Shown here piece after piece: positions 4,231-50,823 of a stretch of DNA of 64,000 bases. Origin of the DNA: Azospirillum lipoferum 4B (GTDB taxonomy: Bacteria; Pseudomonadota; Alphaproteobacteria; Azospirillales; Azospirillaceae). The stretch lies in assembly GCF_000283655.1 (NCBI RefSeq), contig NC_016586.1, positions 201,001 to 265,000 of the forward strand, written 5' to 3'. Below the pieces are notes generated by a model. The model did not search any database. It had not been told where the DNA came from and worked only from the letters and a program-made list of their open reading frames with translations. Positions within the stretch are counted from its first letter, which is position 1. Every line of letters starts with the position of its first letter. The translations under genes and the position numbers were made by a program.

Positions 4231-5415
4231 ATGGAGGGCCTACCCGACGAGAGGGAGGCTCGGATGTCCGAGGAGTTCGACGAGACGTTCCAGCGGTCGC
4301 GCCTGCGCAGCCTGCTTGACCATTTTTCCGTCCTTAAGTACCCGCGCGAGGCTCCGGAAGTCCGGTACCCGCTGCGGGAGGTGCTGTTTCTGGTGGTGGC
4401 CGCGACCATAGCGGACTGTGAGGACTACGATGAGATCGCCCTTTGGGGGCGTAATCATCTGGAGTTCCTGCGGCGCTTTTCGGAGTTCCACTTCGGCACG
4501 CCGTGTGCGGACTGGCTTCGGGTGGTGATGAACCGGATTGGGCCGGACCTGTTCCAGGCCTGCTTTACCGATTGGGCGTTGGCGTTGCGCCCGGACGCGC
4601 CGAAGCTGATCGCCATCGACGGCAAGACCTCGCGGCGCAGCCATGACCGGGCCGCCGGGCGCAAGGCGCTGCATCTGGTGTCTGCCTGGGCCACCACCGA
4701 ACGCCTGGTGCTGGCCCAGGAAGCCGTGGACGAGAAGGAGAACGAGTGCGCGGTGATCCCCGAGATCCTGGAGCGCCTGGATCTGAACGGCGCGGTGGTC
4801 ACCATCGACGCCATCGCCTGCAATCCCGCCATCGCCACAGCCATCACCGAGCGCAAGGGCGACTATCTGCTGGCGGTAAAGGCCAATCAACCAACCCTGT
4901 TCGCCGAGATCGGCCGTTACTTCGATGATCCCGAGGCCCGGATCGCCGAGCACACCGCTGTCGACAAAGGCCATGGCCGGATCGAGAGCCGCCGCTATGC
5001 CGTCAGCCAGGAGGTCGACTGGCTGTCGGGCGACCGGCGCTATCCCGACGAACCCCGCTTCCCTCACCTCAAGACCATCGCCCTGGTCGAGAGCGTCGTC
5101 GAAAAGGCCGGCAGCGTAAGCACCATGCGGCGCCTCTTCCTCAGTTCGGCCGCGCTCACCTCCCACCGCCTCGAACAAGCTGTGCGCGGGCACTGGGGCA
5201 TCGAAAACTGCCTGCACTGGGTCCTCGACGTCACCTTCCGCGAAGATCACCGCCTGCGAAAAGGACACGGCGCCCGGAACATGGCCGTCGTCCGCCACTT
5301 CGCCATCAATGCCGTCCGCGTGGGAAAGGGAAAACACTCCATCAAATCAACCAGAAAGCTCGCAGGCTGGGACCCAAACGTCCTGGCAAACCTGCTTACA
5401 CCTTCATCGCATTAA
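4231..5415 (+). CDS. ISAs1-family transposase
   Basis: 394 aa, the normal size for the family. An N-terminal DDE-associated domain (DHFSVLKYPREAPEVRYPL) is followed by the DDE nuclease core: AIDGKTSRRSHD with the first Asp, VVTIDAIACN with the second, DYLLAVKANQPTL, and HWGIENCLHWVLDVTF with the Glu. No frameshift or stop is seen, so it is probably active. The ATG at 4231 has a strong Shine-Dalgarno (GGGGAG) 7-8 bases upstream; an in-frame ATG at 4264, also preceded by GGGAGG, is an alternative. Confidence 0.93.
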   Translation: MEGLPDEREARMSEEFDETFQRSRLRSLLDHFSVLKYPREAPEVRYPLREVLFLVVAATIADCEDYDEIALWGRNHLEFLRRFSEFHFGTPCADWLRVVMNRIGPDLFQACFTDWALALRPDAPKLIAIDGKTSRRSHDRAAGRKALHLVSAWATTERLVLAQEAVDEKENECAVIPEILERLDLNGAVVTIDAIACNPAIATAITERKGDYLLAVKANQPTLFAEIGRYFDDPEARIAEHTAVDKGHGRIESRRYAVSQEVDWLSGDRRYPDEPRFPHLKTIALVESVVEKAGSVSTMRRLFLSSAALTSHRLEQAVRGHWGIENCLHWVLDVTFREDHRLRKGHGARNMAVVRHFAINAVRVGKGKHSIKSTRKLAGWDPNVLANLLTPSSH

Positions 5416-7249: not shown

Positions 7250-7279
7250 TTGACAGACGGCGCGATGGTCTTCTAGGCT
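7250..7279 (+). promoter_or_regulatory. Promoter of the TPP-riboswitch operon
   Basis: TTGACA at 7250-7255, an 18-base spacer and TAGGCT at 7274-7279. The predicted start near 7285 coincides with the 5' edge of the riboswitch aptamer. Confidence 0.65.
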
Positions 7280-7281
7280 CC

Positions 7282-7405
7282 GTCCCGTTCCCAGGGGAGC
7301 CTCGTTCAGGAGGCTGAGACACCCGCCGGCCCGGTCCTTCGCGTCCAGGCGACGCGGCAACCCTTCGAACCTGATCCGGGTCATGCCGGCGTAGGGATGC
7401 GGGAC
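7282..7405 (+). ncRNA. TPP riboswitch (THI element)
   Basis: The conserved aptamer landmarks are present in order. GGGGAGCC is at 7294-7301 and CTGAGA at 7314-7319. The 3' block, around 7364-7397, contains CCCTTCGAACCTGAT and GCGTAGGGA. The outer P1 helix can pair GTCCCG (7282-7287) with CGGGAC (7400-7405). TPP binding normally represses expression. In Gram-negative bacteria this is usually done by hiding the ribosome site, and here CCCCC at 7440-7444 could pair with the GGGG run just before the LuxE-like start. Other architectures in the 115-base platform are possible. Confidence 0.92.
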
Positions 7406-7519
7406 GAGAAGGCCTTTGCGGCCGACGCGCAGATCCATACCCCCACAGGCTTGTCCCGGATTCGTTTGTTGCTCCATCGGTCGGTGCCGCATGGAGAAAT
7501 CGGGGCGGGGAGTGCGGCG

Positions 7520-8620
7520 GTGAGCGCGATCTACGACAGCGTGATCTACGACAGGGTCCTGGCCTTCATGGAGGCCGACATCGGAACCGGGGCGGCGGCC
7601 GACGAGGCCTTCAACGCCCTGGCGCTGGCGGTGTTCGCCCATCAGTTCGAGCACAACCAGCCCTATCGCCGCTTCGCCATGCAGCGCGGCCGGACGCCGC
7701 GCGGGGTGAAGAGCTGGCGCGACATCCCGGCGGTGCCGATCAACGCCTTCAAGGACCTGACGCTCAGCTGCCGCCCGGCGGAGGAGTCCGCCCGCATCTT
7801 CATGACCAGCGGCACGACCAAGGGCGGCATCCGCGGCCAGATCCACCACACTACCCTGACGGTCTATGACCGCTCCATGCTGCTCAACTTCCGCCGCCGC
7901 TTCATGCAGGAGGCAGAGCGGATGGCGATGGGCATCCTGTTCCCGACCGAGACGGCGATGCCGAACTCCTCGCTCGCCCATTACCTGGAGCTGGCGCGGG
8001 CGGAGTGCGGCACGCCGGACAGCCGCCATTGGATCGGCGAGGCGGGCATCGACACCGCCGGGCTCTACGACCGGTTGGATGCCGCCGAACGGTCGGGGCT
8101 GCCCTTCGCGCTGCTGGGCGCCAGCTACGGATTCGTGCATCTGATGGACGCCATGGCGCGCGACGGACGCCGTTTCGCCCTGCCGGAGGGGAGCCGCATC
8201 CTCGACACCGGCGGCTTCAAGGGCCAGTCGCGCGAACTGGAACCGGACGAGTTCTATGGCCAGCTGGCCGAATTCTTCGGCGTGCCGCGCCAGCGCTGCA
8301 TCAACATGTACGGCATGACGGAGCTGAGCACTCAGTTCTACGACGACGGCAACGCGGTCTGCCCGTCGCTGAAATCCGGCCCGCATTGGATCCGCAGCCG
8401 CGTCGTCGATCCCTTGTCCGGGCGGGACGTGCCGGCCGGCGGTATGGGCGTGCTGGTGCACCATGATCTGGCCCACGTCAACTCCGTCGCCGCCATCCTG
8501 ACCGAGGACGCCGGCATCCTGGAGGAGGGCGGGTTCCGCCTGCTGGGCCGCGTCGCCGGGGCGCAGGCCAAGGGCTGTTCGCTGGCGGTGGAGGATTTCC
8601 TCGCCGCCGCGCGCGGTTGA
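7520..8620 (+). CDS. LuxE-like acyl-activating enzyme (acyl-protein synthetase family), TPP-riboswitch controlled
   Basis: 366 aa from the GTG at 7520, preceded by GGGGAG (7507-7512). An upstream in-frame ATG at 7397 lies inside the riboswitch and is rejected. Length and motifs match LuxE, a branch of the ANL superfamily: IFMTSGTTKGG (ATP/AMP loop), LLGASYGFVHLMDA, and CINMYGMTELSTQFYD, the AMP-site motif. LuxE proteins activate a carboxylate with ATP and pass the acyl group to the reductase LuxC. The gene overlaps the LuxC-like gene by 4 bases, so a complex is likely. There are no luciferase genes (luxAB), so bioluminescence is not the role. Given the TPP switch, the substrate is more likely a carboxylated thiamine fragment than a fatty acid (inference). 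Confidence 0.85.
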   Translation: MSAIYDSVIYDRVLAFMEADIGTGAAADEAFNALALAVFAHQFEHNQPYRRFAMQRGRTPRGVKSWRDIPAVPINAFKDLTLSCRPAEESARIFMTSGTTKGGIRGQIHHTTLTVYDRSMLLNFRRRFMQEAERMAMGILFPTETAMPNSSLAHYLELARAECGTPDSRHWIGEAGIDTAGLYDRLDAAERSGLPFALLGASYGFVHLMDAMARDGRRFALPEGSRILDTGGFKGQSRELEPDEFYGQLAEFFGVPRQRCINMYGMTELSTQFYDDGNAVCPSLKSGPHWIRSRVVDPLSGRDVPAGGMGVLVHHDLAHVNSVAAILTEDAGILEEGGFRLLGRVAGAQAKGCSLAVEDFLAAARG

Positions 8621-10101
8621 ACGGGACCGCGGCCTTGGCCTTCCGCGACGAACCGGAACTGGCAGGCCATCTGCCCGGCCTGCCGCCGGATGCGGTGGAG
8701 CGGCGCGTGCTGACCTTCGGGTCGGGCGCTGCGGCGTTGCGCGTGGCGGTGCCGGTGCTGGATTCCGGGCAGGTGGAGCGGGTCGCGGCGACGGTCCGGG
8801 CGGCGGCGCGCGGCTATCTGAAAACGCTGCCGACGGCGCACATCGTCGCGGTGATCGATGTGGCGATCCAGCGGCTGCTCGACCGCGAGGACCCATGGCG
8901 CCGCCGGGCGGAGCGGTTGCTGCCCATCGTCACCGGCTATGACGCCGAGATGGTGCGTCTGGGGCTGACCGGCTATCTGAAGACCTTCCGCGCGCATGAG
9001 TTGCGTCGCTTCCTGGCGGAGGATTTCGCCAACCCGCTGGTGCTGGACGAATTCCAGCCGGCGCCCAAGGGCGGCTTCACCCGCGCCTTCGGCCCCGACC
9101 TGCTGCTGCATGTCTGGGCGGGCAATGTGCCGGGGCTGCCCTTGTGGAGCCTGATCTCCGGCCTGCTGGTGAAATCCGGCACGGTCGGCAAGCTGCCCAG
9201 CGCCGAGCCGCTGTTCGCGGGCTGGTTCGCCCAATTGCTGGCGGAGATCGACCCCAGGCTGGGCGACTGTCTGGCGGTAGTGTGGTGGAAGGGCGGCGAT
9301 GCGGCGGCGGAGCGGGCATGGCTGGCCCAGGCCGACACGGTGGTCGCCTATGGCGGCAATTCGGCGCTGGCGGCGATCCGCGACCGGGTGCCGGTGACCA
9401 CCCGCTTCCTGCCCTACGGCCACAAGATCAGCTTCGCGATGGTGTCGCGCGCCGCCCTCGACCCGCGGCGGGCGGGGGAGACGGCGCGGCTGGCCGCCCA
9501 CGACATCGCCCGCTACGACCAGCAGGGCTGCTATTCGCCGCAGACCCTGTTCGTCGAGCGCGGCGGCCGGCTGTCGCCGCAGGATTTTGCCGTCCTGCTC
9601 GCCCAGGAACTCGCGGTGCAATCCCGCAAGCACCCGCGCCGTGCCCTGTCGATGGCGGAGGCCGGGGAGGTCGCCGGCTGGCGCGACGGGCAAGCGATGC
9701 GCGGCCTGGACGGGTCCGGCCATCTGCTGCTGTCGGATCCGGCAGGCGGCTGGTGCGTGTCCTGCACCGACGCGCCGGACGGGTTGGCGCCGACCGCGCT
9801 GAACCGGACGATTTCCGTGGTCGCGGTGGACGATCTGGCGGAGGTGGCGGGCCGCGTCGCACCGCACCGCGCCGTGCTGCAGACCGCCGGCATTGCAGCG
9901 CCGCCGGAAGAGTTGTTCCGGCTGGCCGGGCCGCTGGGTGCGGCTGGGGTGACGCGGCTTTGTGCCTTGGGTGGCATGACCGCGCCGGAGGCGGGTTGGC
10001 ACCATGACGGCCGGTTCAACCTGCTGGATCTGGTGACGGTGACGGAGATCGAACGCTCGGCGGAAGCGCTGGCGGAGGGGTTGGCCCGCTATGCCGATTG
10101 A
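8617..10101 (+). CDS. LuxC-like acyl reductase (aldehyde-forming), TPP-riboswitch controlled
   Basis: 494 aa from a TTG start whose TTGA overlaps the previous stop. It belongs to the LuxC acyl-CoA/acyl-protein reductase family, part of the aldehyde dehydrogenase superfamily. HVWAGNVPGLPLWSLISGLLVKSGTVGKLPS forms the nucleotide and substrate region. VVAYGGNSAL and FLPYGHKISFAMV follow. DQQGCYSPQ carries the catalytic Cys (C305), which takes the acyl group from LuxE. The C-terminal half is complete. The expected reaction is acyl-S-enzyme + NADPH to aldehyde. Its 3' end overlaps the ABC ATPase gene by 11 bases, tying reduction to transport. Confidence 0.85.
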   Translation: MNGTAALAFRDEPELAGHLPGLPPDAVERRVLTFGSGAAALRVAVPVLDSGQVERVAATVRAAARGYLKTLPTAHIVAVIDVAIQRLLDREDPWRRRAERLLPIVTGYDAEMVRLGLTGYLKTFRAHELRRFLAEDFANPLVLDEFQPAPKGGFTRAFGPDLLLHVWAGNVPGLPLWSLISGLLVKSGTVGKLPSAEPLFAGWFAQLLAEIDPRLGDCLAVVWWKGGDAAAERAWLAQADTVVAYGGNSALAAIRDRVPVTTRFLPYGHKISFAMVSRAALDPRRAGETARLAAHDIARYDQQGCYSPQTLFVERGGRLSPQDFAVLLAQELAVQSRKHPRRALSMAEAGEVAGWRDGQAMRGLDGSGHLLLSDPAGGWCVSCTDAPDGLAPTALNRTISVVAVDDLAEVAGRVAPHRAVLQTAGIAAPPEELFRLAGPLGAAGVTRLCALGGMTAPEAGWHHDGRFNLLDLVTVTEIERSAEALAEGLARYAD

Positions 10102-10873
10102 CCCGCCGGCCTTCCTGAGCTTCGAGGGCGTGCGCTTCGATTACGGCGCCGCCGCCATCGTCGATGGCGTCGACTGGTCGGTCGGCCGGGGCGCCATCCA
10201 CTGCCTGCTGGGGCGCAGCGGTTGCGGCAAGACCACGCTGCTGAAGCTGGCCGCCGGGCTTCTCTCCCCCGCCGCGGGAGGGGTGCGGCTGGACGGCGTG
10301 CCGGTGCGCGGGCCGGGCGATGCGGTGGGCTTCGTCTTCCAGGCGCCGACGCTGCTGGAATGGCTGACGGTGCTCGACAATGTGCTGCTGCCGGTGACGC
10401 TGCACCGCCGCGCCAGCGCCGACGACCGCGCCCGCGCGCTGGACCTGCTGGAACTGGTCGGGCTGGCCGGGCTGTCGGAGCGGGGGCCGCGGGCGCTGTC
10501 GGGCGGTCAGCAGAGCCGGGTGGCGCTGGCCCGCGCGCTGATCGCCGATCCGGCGCTGCTTCTGCTCGACGAGCCCTTCGCCGCGCTGGACGCCCTGACG
10601 CGCGAGGAGCTGCAGGAGGATCTGCTGCGGCTGTGCGCGCAGCGCGGCACCACCGCGCTGTTCGTCACCCACGACATCGCCGAGGCGGTCTATCTGGGCG
10701 ACCGCGTGGCGGTGATGGCGGACGGGCGGCTGCGCCACAGCGTGTCCATCGACCTGCCGCGTCCGCGCCCGCGCGATGTGCGCTATGACCCGCGATTCAA
10801 CGCGCTGTGCCGCGAGCTGCGCCATGCCATGGACGGCGCGTCCGGCGTCCGGCGGGCGGAGGCGGCGGAATGA
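10091..10873 (+). CDS. ABC transporter ATPase, SsuB/TauB/ThiZ type
   Basis: 260 aa. Walker A is GRSGCGKTT, the Q-loop lies in VFQAPTLLEWLTV, the signature is LSGGQQSRVALARAL, Walker B is LLLLDEPFAALD and the switch His is in FVTHDIAEAV. This subtype serves NMT1/THI5-like binding proteins (sulfonates, nitrate, pyrimidine precursors). The start overlaps the LuxC-like gene and the stop overlaps the permease start (ATGA), so the three are translationally coupled. In this riboswitch context it is best compared with ThiZ of HMP-precursor importers, but sequence alone cannot tell ThiZ from SsuB. Confidence 0.9.
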   Translation: MPIDPPAFLSFEGVRFDYGAAAIVDGVDWSVGRGAIHCLLGRSGCGKTTLLKLAAGLLSPAAGGVRLDGVPVRGPGDAVGFVFQAPTLLEWLTVLDNVLLPVTLHRRASADDRARALDLLELVGLAGLSERGPRALSGGQQSRVALARALIADPALLLLDEPFAALDALTREELQEDLLRLCAQRGTTALFVTHDIAEAVYLGDRVAVMADGRLRHSVSIDLPRPRPRDVRYDPRFNALCRELRHAMDGASGVRRAEAAE

Positions 10874-11619
10874 CCAACCGCCTCGCTGCGATCCTGCTGC
10901 CGCTGCTGCTTCTGGCGGGGTGGGAGGGCTATTGCCGCTGGTCGGGGATTCCGGCGCTGGTGCTGCCGCCGCCCTCCGCCGTGGGGGCTGCGCTGTGGAG
11001 CGGTCTGGCGAGCGGACGGCTGCTGCCGCATCTGGCGGTGACGGCTGCGGAGATGGCGCTCGGTCTCGGCATCGGCTGCCTCGTCGGTTTCGTCGCCGGG
11101 GTGGCACTGGCGGAGGTCGCGGGACTGCGCCGGCTGCTCTACCCCTATGTCATCGCCAGCCAGGTGGTGCCGAAGCTGGCGCTGGCGCCGCTGTTCATCC
11201 TGTGGTTCGGCTTCGGCATGACCTCCACCGTCGCGATCACCGCGTTGATCTGCTTCTTCCCGCTGCTGGAGAACACGCTGACGGGCCTCGACCGCGTCGA
11301 TCCCGCCAAGCGGGAGCTGTTCCGCATGCTGCGCGCCGGGCGCTGGCGCACCCTGACGCGGCTCAAGATTCCCGCGGGCCTGCCGGTGATCCTGGCCGGG
11401 CTGCGCGTGGCGGTGGTGCTGGCGCTGGTCGGTGCCGTGGTGGGGGAGTTCATCGGCGGGCGCCAGGGGCTGGGCGCCTCGATCATCGCTGCGCAGGGGA
11501 TGATGGACACCCCGCTGATGTTCGCCCTGTTCGCGGTCATCACCGCGCTGGGCATGCTGATGTATCAGGCCACGCTGCTGATCGAGCGGTGGCTGTTGTC
11601 TCGACAGGCGAAAGGATAG
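10870..11619 (+). CDS. ABC transporter permease, SsuC/ThiX type
   Basis: 249 aa from the ATG that overlaps the ATPase stop. It has about six membrane segments, the first being LAAILLPLLLLAGWEGY. The EAA-type cytoplasmic loop is RMLRAGRWRTLTRLKIPAGLPVILAGLRVAV, which binds the ATPase, and VVGEFIGGRQGLGASI follows as in the BPD_transp_1 family. It would form a homodimeric channel. A longer frame starting at 10807 is only readthrough of the overlapping region and lacks a membrane-protein start. Confidence 0.9.
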   Translation: MTNRLAAILLPLLLLAGWEGYCRWSGIPALVLPPPSAVGAALWSGLASGRLLPHLAVTAAEMALGLGIGCLVGFVAGVALAEVAGLRRLLYPYVIASQVVPKLALAPLFILWFGFGMTSTVAITALICFFPLLENTLTGLDRVDPAKRELFRMLRAGRWRTLTRLKIPAGLPVILAGLRVAVVLALVGAVVGEFIGGRQGLGASIIAAQGMMDTPLMFALFAVITALGMLMYQATLLIERWLLSRQAKG

Positions 11620-11626
11620 CAGGGAA

Positions 11627-12625
11627 ATGGGTCTGTTTTCTCGTTTGGTGGGGGCATCCGCCCTTGTCGGGACGCTGCTGCTGGGCGGCATGTCCGGCGC
11701 TTTCGCCCAGGCACTGGACAAGGTGACGGTGGCGGGCTGGAGCCAGCCGATCAGCGAGATCACCAACCTGCTGGCCGAACCCGACAAGGGCTTCTTCAAG
11801 GCCAAGGGCATCGCGCTGGACTATGTGCCCGGCACCGGCGGCGGGTCGGCGATCCAGACCATGCTGACCGGCAAGGCCGACGTCGCCTTCACCGATCCCG
11901 CCGCCCTCTATCTGGCGCTGGACAAGGGCGAGAAGCTGGTCGCCATCTACAACATCTATCCGCAGAACGTCTTCAACGTGGTGTCGCCCAAGGCCAACGG
12001 CATCGCCAAGCCCGCCGACCTGAAGGGCAAGCGCGTCGGCGTCTACAGCCTGTCGAGCGGCACCCGCCAGAATCTGGCCGTGCTGCTGCATCAGGTGGGC
12101 TTGAGCGAAAAGGACGTGACCATCGAGGTGACCGGGCTGCTGAACTTCGCCCCGGTGATCCAGGGGCAGGTGGACGCCACGGCGGCGACCGACACCGGCC
12201 TCTACGTCGCGCGGCTGAAGGGCCTGCCCGAGGTGAACGTGATCGAGGTGCGCGACAGCCTGAACCTGCCGAGCGACATCTTCGTGGTGACCGAGGAGAC
12301 CTATCGCAGCAAGAAGCCGCTGCTCGCCCGCTTCCTCGCCGCCTACCGGGACAGCGCCGCCTGGATGATCGCCAACCCGGAGGAGGCGGCCCGCCTCGCC
12401 GTCACCCGCGCCATCAACGGGTCGGACGAGGCGGTCAACCTGGGCATCATCAAGCTGCGCAACGCCTCCACCGTGTCGGAGACGACGGAGCGCGAGGGGC
12501 TGGGCGCCTTCGATCCCGGCGTGATGCAGAAGGGCGCCGACACCTTCCACCAGCTGGGGCTGATCGCCCGCCCGCTCGACATGGGCACGGTGGTGCGCAC
12601 CGACCTGATCCCACCCAAGCAGTGA
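11627..12625 (+). CDS. NMT1/THI5-like periplasmic substrate-binding protein
   Basis: 332 aa with a Sec signal peptide ending near AFAQA (about residue 25). The mature part has the NMT1 fold: a glycine-rich ligand loop YVPGTGGGSAIQTMLTGKADVAFTDPAALY, and LKGKRVGVYSLSSGTRQNL in the second lobe. Yeast THI5, bacterial ThiY and the SsuA/TauA proteins share this fold; ThiY binds a formylated aminopyrimidine. Under a TPP riboswitch, a pyrimidine or thiazole fragment of thiamine is the best guess for the ligand. The gene starts 7 bases after the permease stop. Confidence 0.88.
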   Translation: MGLFSRLVGASALVGTLLLGGMSGAFAQALDKVTVAGWSQPISEITNLLAEPDKGFFKAKGIALDYVPGTGGGSAIQTMLTGKADVAFTDPAALYLALDKGEKLVAIYNIYPQNVFNVVSPKANGIAKPADLKGKRVGVYSLSSGTRQNLAVLLHQVGLSEKDVTIEVTGLLNFAPVIQGQVDATAATDTGLYVARLKGLPEVNVIEVRDSLNLPSDIFVVTEETYRSKKPLLARFLAAYRDSAAWMIANPEEAARLAVTRAINGSDEAVNLGIIKLRNASTVSETTEREGLGAFDPGVMQKGADTFHQLGLIARPLDMGTVVRTDLIPPKQ

Positions 12626-12635
12626 CGGGACCGTC

Positions 12636-13409
12636 ATGGATTTCCAGGGCAAGGCCATCCTCGTCACCGGCGCCGGGCGCGGCATCGGCGCTGCCATCGC
12701 CCGCGCCTTCGCCGCGGAAGGGGCCATGGTGGCGGTCAACTACCTCCGCAACCAAGCTGCTGCGGAAGCGGTGGCGGCGGAGTGCCGGGCACTGGGCGGC
12801 GACGGGTTGCCGCTGCGCGCGGACGTGACCGACGCCGTGGCAGTCGCTGGGATGGTGGAGACGGCGGTCGCGGAGTTCGGCGGGCTGGACGTGGTCGTCA
12901 ACAACGCCTTCGCGCCCTATGTCTTCGACCCGGACCGGCGGCGGCTGTTCTGGGAAACCGAGTGGGACGACTACCAGACCCAGATCGACGGGGCGCTGAA
13001 AAGCACCCACGCCGTCTGCCGGGCGGTGCTGCCGGCGTTGCGCCGGCGGGGCGGAGGCAGCATCGTCAACATGGCGACCGACCTCGTGGCGCGGCCGACC
13101 GTGCCATACCACGACTACACCACCGCCAAGGCGGCGCTGATCGGCTTCAGCCGCACCCTGGCGGCGGAGCTGGGGCCGTTCGGCATCCGCGTCAACTGCG
13201 TGGCGCCGGGGCTGGTCTATCCCACCGACGCCAGCCGGTCGACGCCGGAACCGGTGAAGGACCGCATCACCGCCCTGACGCCGCTCGGCCGCATCGCGAC
13301 GCCGGAGGATGTCGCCGGGCCGGTGCTGTTCCTTGCCTCCGACTGGAGCCGCTTCATGACCGGCCAGACGCTGACGGTGGATGGCGGGCTGGTGATGGGC
13401 GGCACCTGA
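12636..13409 (+). CDS. Short-chain dehydrogenase/reductase in the TPP-riboswitch operon
   Basis: 257 aa classical SDR. The cofactor motif is TGAGRGIG (residues 10-17), with DVTD and NNAF, and the active site is YTTAK. The usual catalytic Ser position reads NMATD, apparently Thr instead of Ser. There are no obvious acidic residues after the second strand (VNYLRN), which favours NADP(H). It lies 10 bases after the binding-protein gene, so it is the last tightly linked gene of the operon. The logical role is to reduce the aldehyde made by the LuxC-like enzyme to an alcohol. The generic 3-oxoacyl-reductase annotation such sequences receive would be uninformative here. Confidence 0.85.
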   Translation: MDFQGKAILVTGAGRGIGAAIARAFAAEGAMVAVNYLRNQAAAEAVAAECRALGGDGLPLRADVTDAVAVAGMVETAVAEFGGLDVVVNNAFAPYVFDPDRRRLFWETEWDDYQTQIDGALKSTHAVCRAVLPALRRRGGGSIVNMATDLVARPTVPYHDYTTAKAALIGFSRTLAAELGPFGIRVNCVAPGLVYPTDASRSTPEPVKDRITALTPLGRIATPEDVAGPVLFLASDWSRFMTGQTLTVDGGLVMGGT

Positions 13410-49229: not shown

Positions 49230-50036
49230 ATGACCGCATTGTCGAAATCCTGGGAGCGCGCGGTCGTTCCCGTCCTGATCCTCGCGGCCTGGGAGATCGT
49301 GTCGCGGTCCGGCCTGCTGCCGGCGGCCCTGCTGCCGGCACCCTCCATCGTGCTGCACAGCTGGGCCGACTGGGTGCTCGGCTTCGACGAGACGACGCAG
49401 GCCAACAGCGGGCGCTGGCTGGCCGACGCGCTGTCCAGCGCTCTTCGGGTCGCCGCCGGCTACGGCATCGCGGTGGCGAGCGGCGTGCTGCTGGGCATCG
49501 CCATCGGCTGGTGGAGCTGGGTGGAGCGCGCCATCGAACCGACCATCCAGATGCTGCGCCCGGTGCCGCCGGTGTCCTGGATCCCGGTGGCGATCATCTG
49601 GTTCGGCATCGCCAACAAGCCGGCGATCTTCCTGGTCTTCCTCGGCGCCTTCTTCCCGATCCTGATGAACACCATCCATGGCGTGAAGACCGCCGACCGC
49701 AACCTGATCCGCGCCGCCTCGATGATGGGCGCCACCGAACAGCAGCTTCTGCGCCATGTGGTGTTCCCGGCGGCGCTGCCCAGCATCTTCGCCGGCCTGC
49801 GCATCGGCATCGGCGCCGCCTGGATGCTGACCGTCACGGCGGAGATGGTCGCGGTCAAGAGCGGGCTCGGCTACGTGCTGTGGGACAGCTACTACTTCCT
49901 GCGCTACGACCTCGTCCTTGCCGCGATGGCCAGCATCGGGTTGCTGGGCTACGCCACCGACGCGCTGATCAAGCTGCTGATGTCCGCGGCGCTGCACTGG
50001 CAGCACGCCTCCACGCTCCAGAGCCGGGAGGGCTGA
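49230..50036 (+). CDS. ABC transporter permease, SsuC/TauC type
   Basis: 268 aa with six membrane segments. The coupling loop is IRAASMMGATEQQLLRHVVFPAALPSIFAGLRIGIGAAW, followed by TAEMVAVKSGLGYVLWDSYYFLRYD, as in sulfonate/nitrate/pyrimidine importers. An ATG at 49230 starts the frame 51 bases after the palindromic repeat. It is coupled to the ATPase gene 4 bases downstream. Confidence 0.92.
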   Translation: MTALSKSWERAVVPVLILAAWEIVSRSGLLPAALLPAPSIVLHSWADWVLGFDETTQANSGRWLADALSSALRVAAGYGIAVASGVLLGIAIGWWSWVERAIEPTIQMLRPVPPVSWIPVAIIWFGIANKPAIFLVFLGAFFPILMNTIHGVKTADRNLIRAASMMGATEQQLLRHVVFPAALPSIFAGLRIGIGAAWMLTVTAEMVAVKSGLGYVLWDSYYFLRYDLVLAAMASIGLLGYATDALIKLLMSAALHWQHASTLQSREG

Positions 50037-50040
50037 GCCC

Positions 50041-50823
50041 ATGGCCTCCATCGAACTGCAGAACATCACCAAGATCTACAGCGACACCAAGCGCAAGCGC
50101 GACCTTCTGGCCATCGACGACGTCAGCCTGACGGTGGAACGCAACGAGTTCCTTTGCCTGCTCGGCTCGTCCGGCTGCGGCAAATCCACCCTGCTGAACA
50201 TGATCGCAGGGTTCGAGAAGCCGACCAAGGGCACCGTCACCGTCGGCGGCAAGCCGGTGGACGGCCCCGGTGCCGACCGCGGCATGGTGTTCCAGCAGGC
50301 CACCCTGATGCCCTGGCTTCCGGTGTGGGAGAACATCGCCTTCCACCTGCGCCTGAAGGGCTGGCGCAAGGCCGACCGCCGCGCCGCCGCCCAGGAATAC
50401 ATCGACCTCGTCGGGCTGAAGGGCTTCGAGAACCATTACCCGGCCGAACTGTCGGGCGGCATGAGCCAGCGCGTCGGCATCGCCCGCGCCCTGCTGCTGA
50501 ACCCGCAGGTCATCCTGATGGACGAGCCCTTCGCCGCGCTGGACGCCCAGACCAAGATGGACATGCAGGAGGAGCTGGTCGCCATCTGGCAGAAGCAGCG
50601 CTGCACCATCGTCTTCGTCACCCACAGCGTTGACGAGGCCCTGGTGCTCGGCACACAGGTGGCGGTGCTGACCAGCCGGCCGGGCCGCCTGCGCGAACGC
50701 ATCGAACTGGATCTGCCGCGCCCGCGCGACATCACCAGCCCGCGCTTCAACGACCACAAGCGCCACATCCTGAACCTGATCCGGGAAGAGGGCCTGCAAC
50801 AGCGGCAGGTCGCCGCGGCATGA
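50041..50823 (+). CDS. ABC transporter ATPase, SsuB/TauB type
   Basis: 260 aa. Walker A is GSSGCGKSTL, the Q-loop is in FQQATLMPWLPVWENI, the signature is LSGGMSQRVGIARAL, Walker B is VILMDEPFAALD, and the switch His is in FVTHSVDEAL. It works with the preceding permease and binding protein. It differs from the other ATPase of this class at 10091-10873, so the two importers are separate systems with different control (TPP riboswitch versus FadR). Confidence 0.92.
   Translation: MASIELQNITKIYSDTKRKRDLLAIDDVSLTVERNEFLCLLGSSGCGKSTLLNMIAGFEKPTKGTVTVGGKPVDGPGADRGMVFQQATLMPWLPVWENIAFHLRLKGWRKADRRAAAQEYIDLVGLKGFENHYPAELSGGMSQRVGIARALLLNPQVILMDEPFAALDAQTKMDMQEELVAIWQKQRCTIVFVTHSVDEALVLGTQVAVLTSRPGRLRERIELDLPRPRDITSPRFNDHKRHILNLIREEGLQQRQVAAA

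Follow-up and report, generated by a model that had tools for sequence, protein, structure and literature searches.

A thiamine pyrophosphate riboswitch-preceded operon of LuxE/LuxC-type enzymes and an ABC importer in Azospirillum lipoferum 4B, probably for salvage of the oxidised pyrimidine half of vitamin B1

In luminous bacteria, ATP is used by LuxE to activate an acyl group, which stays bound to the enzyme as a thioester until it is transferred to LuxC for reduction with NADPH; the acyl groups concerned are long-chain. The regulons of thiamine pyrophosphate (TPP) surveyed in PMC3766115 and PMC2211319 consist, in the text available, of biosynthesis genes and transporters, and in Paenibacillus the accessible part of PMC5627462 describes ThiXYZ-type import together with the TenA/YlmB salvage of base-degraded thiamine, by which formylaminopyrimidine (FAMP) is turned into hydroxymethylpyrimidine (HMP). 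Here we describe a six-gene operon of A. lipoferum 4B, located in a stretch of 64,000 nucleotides of contig NC_016586.1 (the 64-kb window), in which relatives of LuxE and LuxC are combined with an ATP-binding cassette (ABC) importer and a short-chain dehydrogenase/reductase (SDR) behind a TPP riboswitch. The operon is probably repressed by TPP and probably serves to salvage the pyrimidine half of vitamin B1 in oxidised form. It shares with the LuxC-LuxE fatty acid reductase (PDB 7xc6) both protein families and both acyl-carrying cysteines, but here the enzymes form a separate clade, appear to be under TPP control and are accompanied by the SDR and importer. The ThiXYZ (ThiY) importer is alike in its three-part ABC form, its NMT1/THI5-type binding protein and the TPP riboswitch ahead of it, whereas in the present operon the importer is coupled to predicted acid-reducing enzymes. 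The logic would be that of TenA/YlmB salvage, where a damaged pyrimidine is taken up and HMP restored, although that route works by hydrolysis, removing an amine as well as a formyl group, and we propose a carboxylate reduction with ATP and NADPH.

Coordinates given below are positions in the window, and all genes of the operon lie on the + strand. The TPP riboswitch aptamer (THI element, RF00059) was located by cmscan to 7283–7415 (+ strand), where it scored 59.6 bits against a gathering threshold of 54.3 and spanned the full model (1–105); it was the sole Rfam match in the 64 kb at the gathering threshold. The full THI element that an initial annotation had read from the letters alone, naming a covariance-model search as its check, is thereby borne out. 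The promoter proposed in the same annotation fared less well: the letters at 7250–7279 (+ strand) can be read as a possible promoter with a perfect TTGACA hexamer (7250) and, after a spacing of 18 bases, TAGGCT (7274), but the latter matches TATAAT at three of six positions and a promoter scan returned no site above threshold here, so this element is weak. Downstream lie the genes for a LuxE-type acyl-adenylating/acyl-protein synthetase (7520–8620; PF04443, 68 bits over 7520–8617) with an acyl-accepting Cys353 and a GTG start at 7520 assigned by alignment with relatives; a LuxC-type acyl-protein thioester reductase (8617–10101; PF05893, 293.9 bits over 8617–10098) with catalytic Cys305; the ABC importer ATPase (10091–10873; PF00005, ABC_tran, 108.4 bits over 10091–10870) and permease (10870–11619; PF00528, BPD_transp_1, 98 bits over 10870–11616); an NMT1/THI5-type binding protein (11627–12625; PF09084, NMT1, 160.6 bits over 11627–12622); and an SDR oxidoreductase with Y161 and K165, predicted to perform an aldehyde-to-alcohol step (12636–13409; PF13561, adh_short_C2, 212.1 bits over 12636–13406). 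Pfam agreed with the earlier naming of all six families. The earlier statement that adjacent genes overlap or lie at most 10 bases apart was correct as well, with luxE/luxC, luxC/ATPase and ATPase/permease overlapping and the other two gaps being 7 and 10 bases.

Membership of the two enzymes in the LuxE/LuxC superfamily is indicated by their Pfam scores, which reach the gathering values, together with C353 and C305, the latter lying in the motif DQQGCYSPQ exactly where it had been placed initially. The LuxE cysteine motif was kept in 79/79 relatives and the LuxC catalytic cysteine in 80/80, two LuxC proteins having W instead of Y in the motif. The near-C-terminal cysteine of LuxE and the cysteine of LuxC align with those of the lux pair of plasmid record L122, which we take to be of Photorhabdus type, at 24% identity, and 7xc6, in which LuxC and LuxE of luminous bacteria were solved together, was the only PDB sequence match of either alignment. 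Relatives carry the annotations 'long-chain fatty acid--CoA ligase' and 'acyl-CoA reductase'. Genuine bioluminescence genes were ruled out because the curated models NF052244 and NF052251 gave 66.5 of 550 and 88.7 of 750 bits, well short of their cut-offs; the other four operon genes encode ABC parts and an SDR, and no luxAB or luxD was found among the six operon genes examined. When 34 LuxE proteins were placed in a tree, those linked to thiamine made up one side of a branch with support 97/94, the other LuxE rows being on very long branches for which the tool warns of false joins or placement.

Comparison with relatives indicates that the riboswitch belongs to the unit. Scanning a collection of species genomes for LuxC yielded 268 relatives, the best 80 of which were kept (L001–L080), a set biased to close relatives. 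Our own TPP model matched 76 of these 80 loci, ahead of luxE or of a thi gene preceding luxE, and gave 93.6 bits on the window element, which belongs to its training set. Since this model was built from 16 elements with only 7 base pairs and scored low in seven Bacilli loci (26.7–39 bits), Rfam counts are given alongside; 12 of the 80 loci had been among the training set, and each of those 12 passed the Rfam cut-off. The Rfam gathering score was reached in 36 of the 51 thi-clade loci tested (window 1/1, other sets 11/14, 6/10, 8/9, 7/10, 3/3 and 0/4), where the sets of 14 and of 10 with 6 matches were picked for size and interest and are non-random, and the set of 4 consisted of loci chosen for being missed by our model. 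As a control, 289 genomes of the class were searched with the Pfam LuxE model; 12 had a match, which exceeded the cut-off in 10. Of those 12, four belong to the thi clade, and each has a TPP element, seen with Rfam for three and in the nearest genome for the fourth; none was found by Rfam in nine LuxE loci outside the clade (eight of the class, two of these being weak partial matches, and one from Bacilli) within the approximately 1.5 kb past the gene to which the loci extend. Because the nearest genome (6.9 Mb) holds five TPP elements, we roughly estimate that, by chance, only about one gene in some thousands would have such an element in the 300 bases upstream of it, and the pairing of TPP element and operon recurs in distant phyla. 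A site scan of the leader found no terminator-like site near the riboswitch, and the leader with the start folded no more strongly than shuffled sequences; therefore, no anti-start structure can be claimed. A regular-expression scan for riboswitches produced stray matches and was excluded from the counts.

The unit occurs in Alpha-, Beta- and Gammaproteobacteria and in Bacilli. Carriers among the best 80 of the 268 relatives include Azospirillum, Bosea, Polaromonas, Ramlibacter, Variovorax, Pantoea, Enterobacter, Roseovarius, marine alphaproteobacteria, Domibacillus, Metabacillus and others; among named plasmid records, one of Azospirillum ramasamyi comes nearest (LuxE 95.3% identical), and the nearest genome contig belongs to Azospirillum sp. 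B21 (LuxC 95%). Counts of gene order cover 104 loci (L001–L080, L153–L172 and L116–L119). The complete arrangement luxE-luxC-ATPase-permease-binding protein-SDR was present in 57, luxE-luxC-SDR alone in 21, an NCS2 permease ahead of luxE in four and ThiW with NCS2 in one; another thi gene stood in 14 loci, five were cut by a contig end, and one each lacked luxE at a contig end (L021) or had an additional ATPase match (L169). A thi gene was present in 15/104 loci. Six marine alphaproteobacterial loci of the three-gene form (L027, L031, L038, L039, L041 and L052) have a gene that by eye resembles dienelactone hydrolase just 5' of the riboswitch, with metH-like and metF-like genes, also judged by eye, close by in several. 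On a Pseudomonas silvicola plasmid (L121:8944–12216), the luxE, luxC and SDR matches come in several pieces, as if decayed.

Seven Betaproteobacterial loci (L042, L044, L050, L053, L059, L071 and L167, the last from the family of Ramlibacter) carry thiD directly ahead of luxE, with the riboswitch preceding thiD; Pfam identified the gene in L042 and L044, and NCBIfam did so in L044 as well. In L171 and L172, thiD follows the SDR gene convergently. L077 has the order luxE..SDR-thiM-thiD-thiE and L154 luxE..SDR-thiM, and in L161, from Bacilli, tenI-thiO-thiG-thiF-luxE..SDR runs in one direction behind a TPP element ahead of tenI (thiO being named from Pfam DAO and its place). In L036, thiC lies ahead of luxE and each has a separate TPP element. 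The absence of a nearby ThiD, remarked on in the initial annotation, is true of the window but not of these relatives: when the window was searched by tblastn for ThiC, D, E, F, G, M, O, W, TenI and NCS2, a set that did not include TenA or luciferase, nothing matched at E 1e-4.

The binding protein has an apparent export signal by eye, and its PF09084 match is what would be expected of the binding protein of a ThiXYZ-type importer. Its profile gave 14 PDB matches, among them THI5 (2.1e-10) and FAMP-binding ThiY (4.3e-9), both of which rank above taurine-binding protein (4.1e-4). THI5, an HMP phosphate synthase, carries a cysteine-rich iron motif; the window protein has no cysteine, nor was any found past column 30 in 18 aligned rows, and it is therefore not a THI5-like synthase. 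The transporter itself is exchanged in some hosts. In L116, L117, L159 and L162, the ABC importer is absent and its place behind the TPP riboswitch is taken by a nucleobase-type permease of the NCS2 family; in L119 the NCS2 permease does so together with ThiW, the hosts being two lactobacilli, Niallia and two further Bacilli. If ThiW carries the thiazole part of thiamine, the NCS2 permease of Niallia should carry something else. This Niallia locus lies on a megaplasmid and has two tandem TPP elements (L119:6667–6963) ahead of thiW-NCS2-luxE-luxC-SDR. The lactobacilli carry L116 and L117 on small plasmids; the two loci share the same listed protein accessions and the plasmids hold mobile genes, which suggests recent spread.

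A second TPP-preceded ABC ATPase-permease pair (L111) is found in the nearest genome, which suggests a different cargo for the lux-type operon. The same genome (G001, contig C3 680000–688600; L112) has a TPP riboswitch ahead of an ABC importer that by eye is of the branched-chain-amino-acid type, with a Peripla_BP_6 binding protein, possibly a further thiamine-related importer of unusual type. At L158:8157–8459, two divergent TPP elements stand ahead of luxE-luxC-SDR and of a PF09819 membrane protein, presumably YkoE-like. Within the window, a second ABC permease and ATPase pair at 49263–50769 (+ strand) is related to the operon importer (ATPase 46%, permease 30% identity), and a 394-residue open reading frame at 4231–5415 (+ strand), by eye an ISAs1-type transposase, lies about 2 kb upstream of the operon.

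The SDR retained its active-site tyrosine and lysine in 15/15 aligned rows, and YxxxK was present in 72 of 75 SDR translations. Given the conserved cysteines of LuxE and LuxC, the SDR residues and the THI5/ThiY-like binding protein, the simplest reading is a course from acid to aldehyde to alcohol and on to ThiD; we infer the acid and the direction of flow from these comparisons. Low TPP would cause the riboswitch to permit expression of the operon, a mode of action predicted from the element itself. The binding protein, permease and ATPase would then import a carboxylated pyrimidine, most likely 4-amino-2-methylpyrimidine-5-carboxylate, a task that the NCS2 permease would take over in the lactobacilli, Niallia and the two further Bacilli. 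The LuxE-type enzyme would activate the carboxylate with ATP and hold it as a thioester on Cys353, from which the acyl group would pass to Cys305 of the LuxC-type enzyme for reduction by NADPH to the aldehyde. The SDR would presumably reduce the aldehyde to HMP, ThiD would phosphorylate HMP twice, and ThiE would join the product to thiazole phosphate. Import followed by acid-to-alcohol reduction feeding salvage had been put forward in the initial annotation; it fits the comparative evidence, both cysteines being kept, and its substrate stays a prediction from sequence. Pyrimidine and thiazole had there been treated as equally likely. The pyrimidine is now favoured because thiD lies in the operon in some relatives, the alternative permease is of nucleobase type, genes for the thiazole part belong to the gene set of L161, and ThiM is missing or weak in most tested carriers.

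The ThiM result was obtained as follows. ThiM, ThiC, ThiG and ThiD were searched in 39 genomes of the 80 loci (the genome of L045 was left out), with ThiC, ThiG and ThiD also searched in G001, and ThiM in a second set of 18 genomes (10 of the 12 carriers in Bacilli and 8 of the 17 in the family of Ramlibacter). ThiM was above cut-off in 19 of 57 carriers (12/39 and 7/18) and just below it in G067 and G522; two Bosea genomes gave two-piece matches of about 100 bits, and the remaining 34 had at best a 28-bit partial match. Some match was returned at E 0.001 in 27/39 and 14/18 genomes, those of 28 bits or less being counted as absent. ThiM is thus absent or weak in most tested carriers, where hydroxyethylthiazole (HET) as a product would be without a known kinase. 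Strong ThiG was found in 39 of 40 carriers. G615, the genome of L161, has ThiC and no ThiM match. G053 and G069 are without ThiC and have ThiM at most as a 26-bit partial match, with ThiG and ThiD present; therefore, HMP is what these genomes would need. In the carriers with missing or weak ThiM, this result speaks against thiazole acetic acid.

Several results weigh against the proposed pyrimidine salvage. ThiD was found in 40/40 carriers (39 above cut-off, one split) and equally in 14/14 control genomes, so its mere presence says little. No thiC match was found in 5/17 carriers and 71/183 non-carriers of one family, a comparison which assumes that both scans drew the same 200 genomes (the listed handles agree), and over all carriers ThiC is missing in only 8/66, some of them small assemblies (G163, G118); with no enrichment for thiC loss, the unit as a substitute for ThiC was rejected. 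Our TPP model had no match in L021 (cut off), L022, L028 and L057, and in these four Rfam returned no TPP element even at E 1. With 299.1 bits against a cut-off of 292, the SDR qualifies for a 3-oxoacyl-acyl carrier protein reductase model. In the PDB, the binding protein matches best to 4nmy and 3qsl, for which no ligand is stated, its scores for TAXI/GluR0-type proteins are similar to those for THI5 and ThiY, and the nearest NCBIfam model is the sulfonate-type SsuA_fam (102.1 bits, below its cut-off of 163.5). For the NCS2 permeases, the best-scoring models are those of xanthine permeases, whose cut-offs are not reached, and this does not single out a pyrimidine. thiM is also linked to the unit in two loci. 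The unit is rare in some groups, with 1/198 in the family of G069 and 12/398 in Bacilli, one of the 12 being weak. We found no report of the pyrimidine acid in habitats of carriers, and a name for the compound occurs in one review.

The main rival has whole oxidised thiamine as cargo, in the form of thiamine acetic acid, a product of soil microbes that oxidise thiamine. The same three enzymes would reduce the side-chain acid to thiamine, and a kinase would yield TPP. The riboswitch, importer and acid-reducing enzymes would all be accounted for, and the ThiM result leaves this explanation intact because neither ThiM nor ThiD is needed. However, thiD ahead of luxE in seven loci, thiM-thiD-thiE and tenI-thiO-thiG-thiF fit a fragment as the product better, an NCS2 permease suits a base better than a bulky cation, and G053 and G069 retain ThiG; we regard this explanation as unlikely. 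A different ring acid, either a vitamin B6 acid or an antivitamin, that is converted to a thiamine precursor or detoxified is slightly less probable still. In its favour, vitamin B6 and histidine are the sources from which THI5 forms the pyrimidine, according to the accessible text of PMC10848271, and ThiD resembles pyridoxal kinases; against it, inspection of the operons by eye showed neither a B6 gene nor an enzyme that would rearrange a ring, and the binding protein lacks the cysteine cluster of THI5. We consider it quite improbable that the substrate of the enzymes is a fatty acyl or some other acyl group and that thiamine control is indirect. Their Lux relatives do use long-chain acyl groups and the SDR resembles FabG, but the proteins lie far under the curated Lux cut-offs and in a clade of their own, a TPP element is nearly always ahead, and the full form has an NMT1/THI5-type binding protein. 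4-Methylthiazole-5-acetate, reduced to HET for ThiM, is the least credible cargo and was rejected for most carriers, since, in spite of thiM after the SDR in L077 and L154, ThiM is so often missing, ThiG is strong and the tenI-thiO-thiG-thiF operon sits in a genome without a ThiM match. Carboxythiazole (cHET; accessible text of PMC10881298) was dropped, as reduction of that acid leads to no known use.

Salvage of vitamin fragments is known, and acid-reduction chemistry for such salvage was not described in the literature searched, within the text available. The pyrimidine vitamers named in the accessible text of PMC10881298 and PMC10470507 are HMP, aminomethylpyrimidine (AmMP) and FAMP, with no pyrimidine carboxylate among them. 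The available text of PMC3766115 contains neither 'luxC' nor 'reductase', and that of PMC2211319 neither 'acyl' nor 'reductase'. The initial annotation knew of no pathway of this form, and we likewise found no description of the operon or pathway in the open text of the sources searched, including PMC10881298, PMC10470507, PMC12452182, PMC2211319, PMC5627462 and PMC3766115; subscription papers, supplements and regulon databases may hold one.

Bacteria are known to obtain the thiamine pyrimidine through synthesis by ThiC and salvage by TenA; pyrimidine salvage by this operon would, as we think rather likely, be a third route, in which 4-amino-2-methylpyrimidine-5-carboxylate is taken up and converted to HMP by the Lux-type pair and the SDR. 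If true, vitamin B1 would be recycled in nature from an oxidised form other than the vitamers named in the available text of PMC10881298 and PMC10470507, and soils, plants and the sea would contain enough of this form to merit a dedicated and widespread operon. Some bacteria without ThiC could then live on the oxidised pyrimidine. Lux-type reductases would gain a vitamin substrate outside bioluminescence, and proteins now annotated as ligases and reductases would gain a function.

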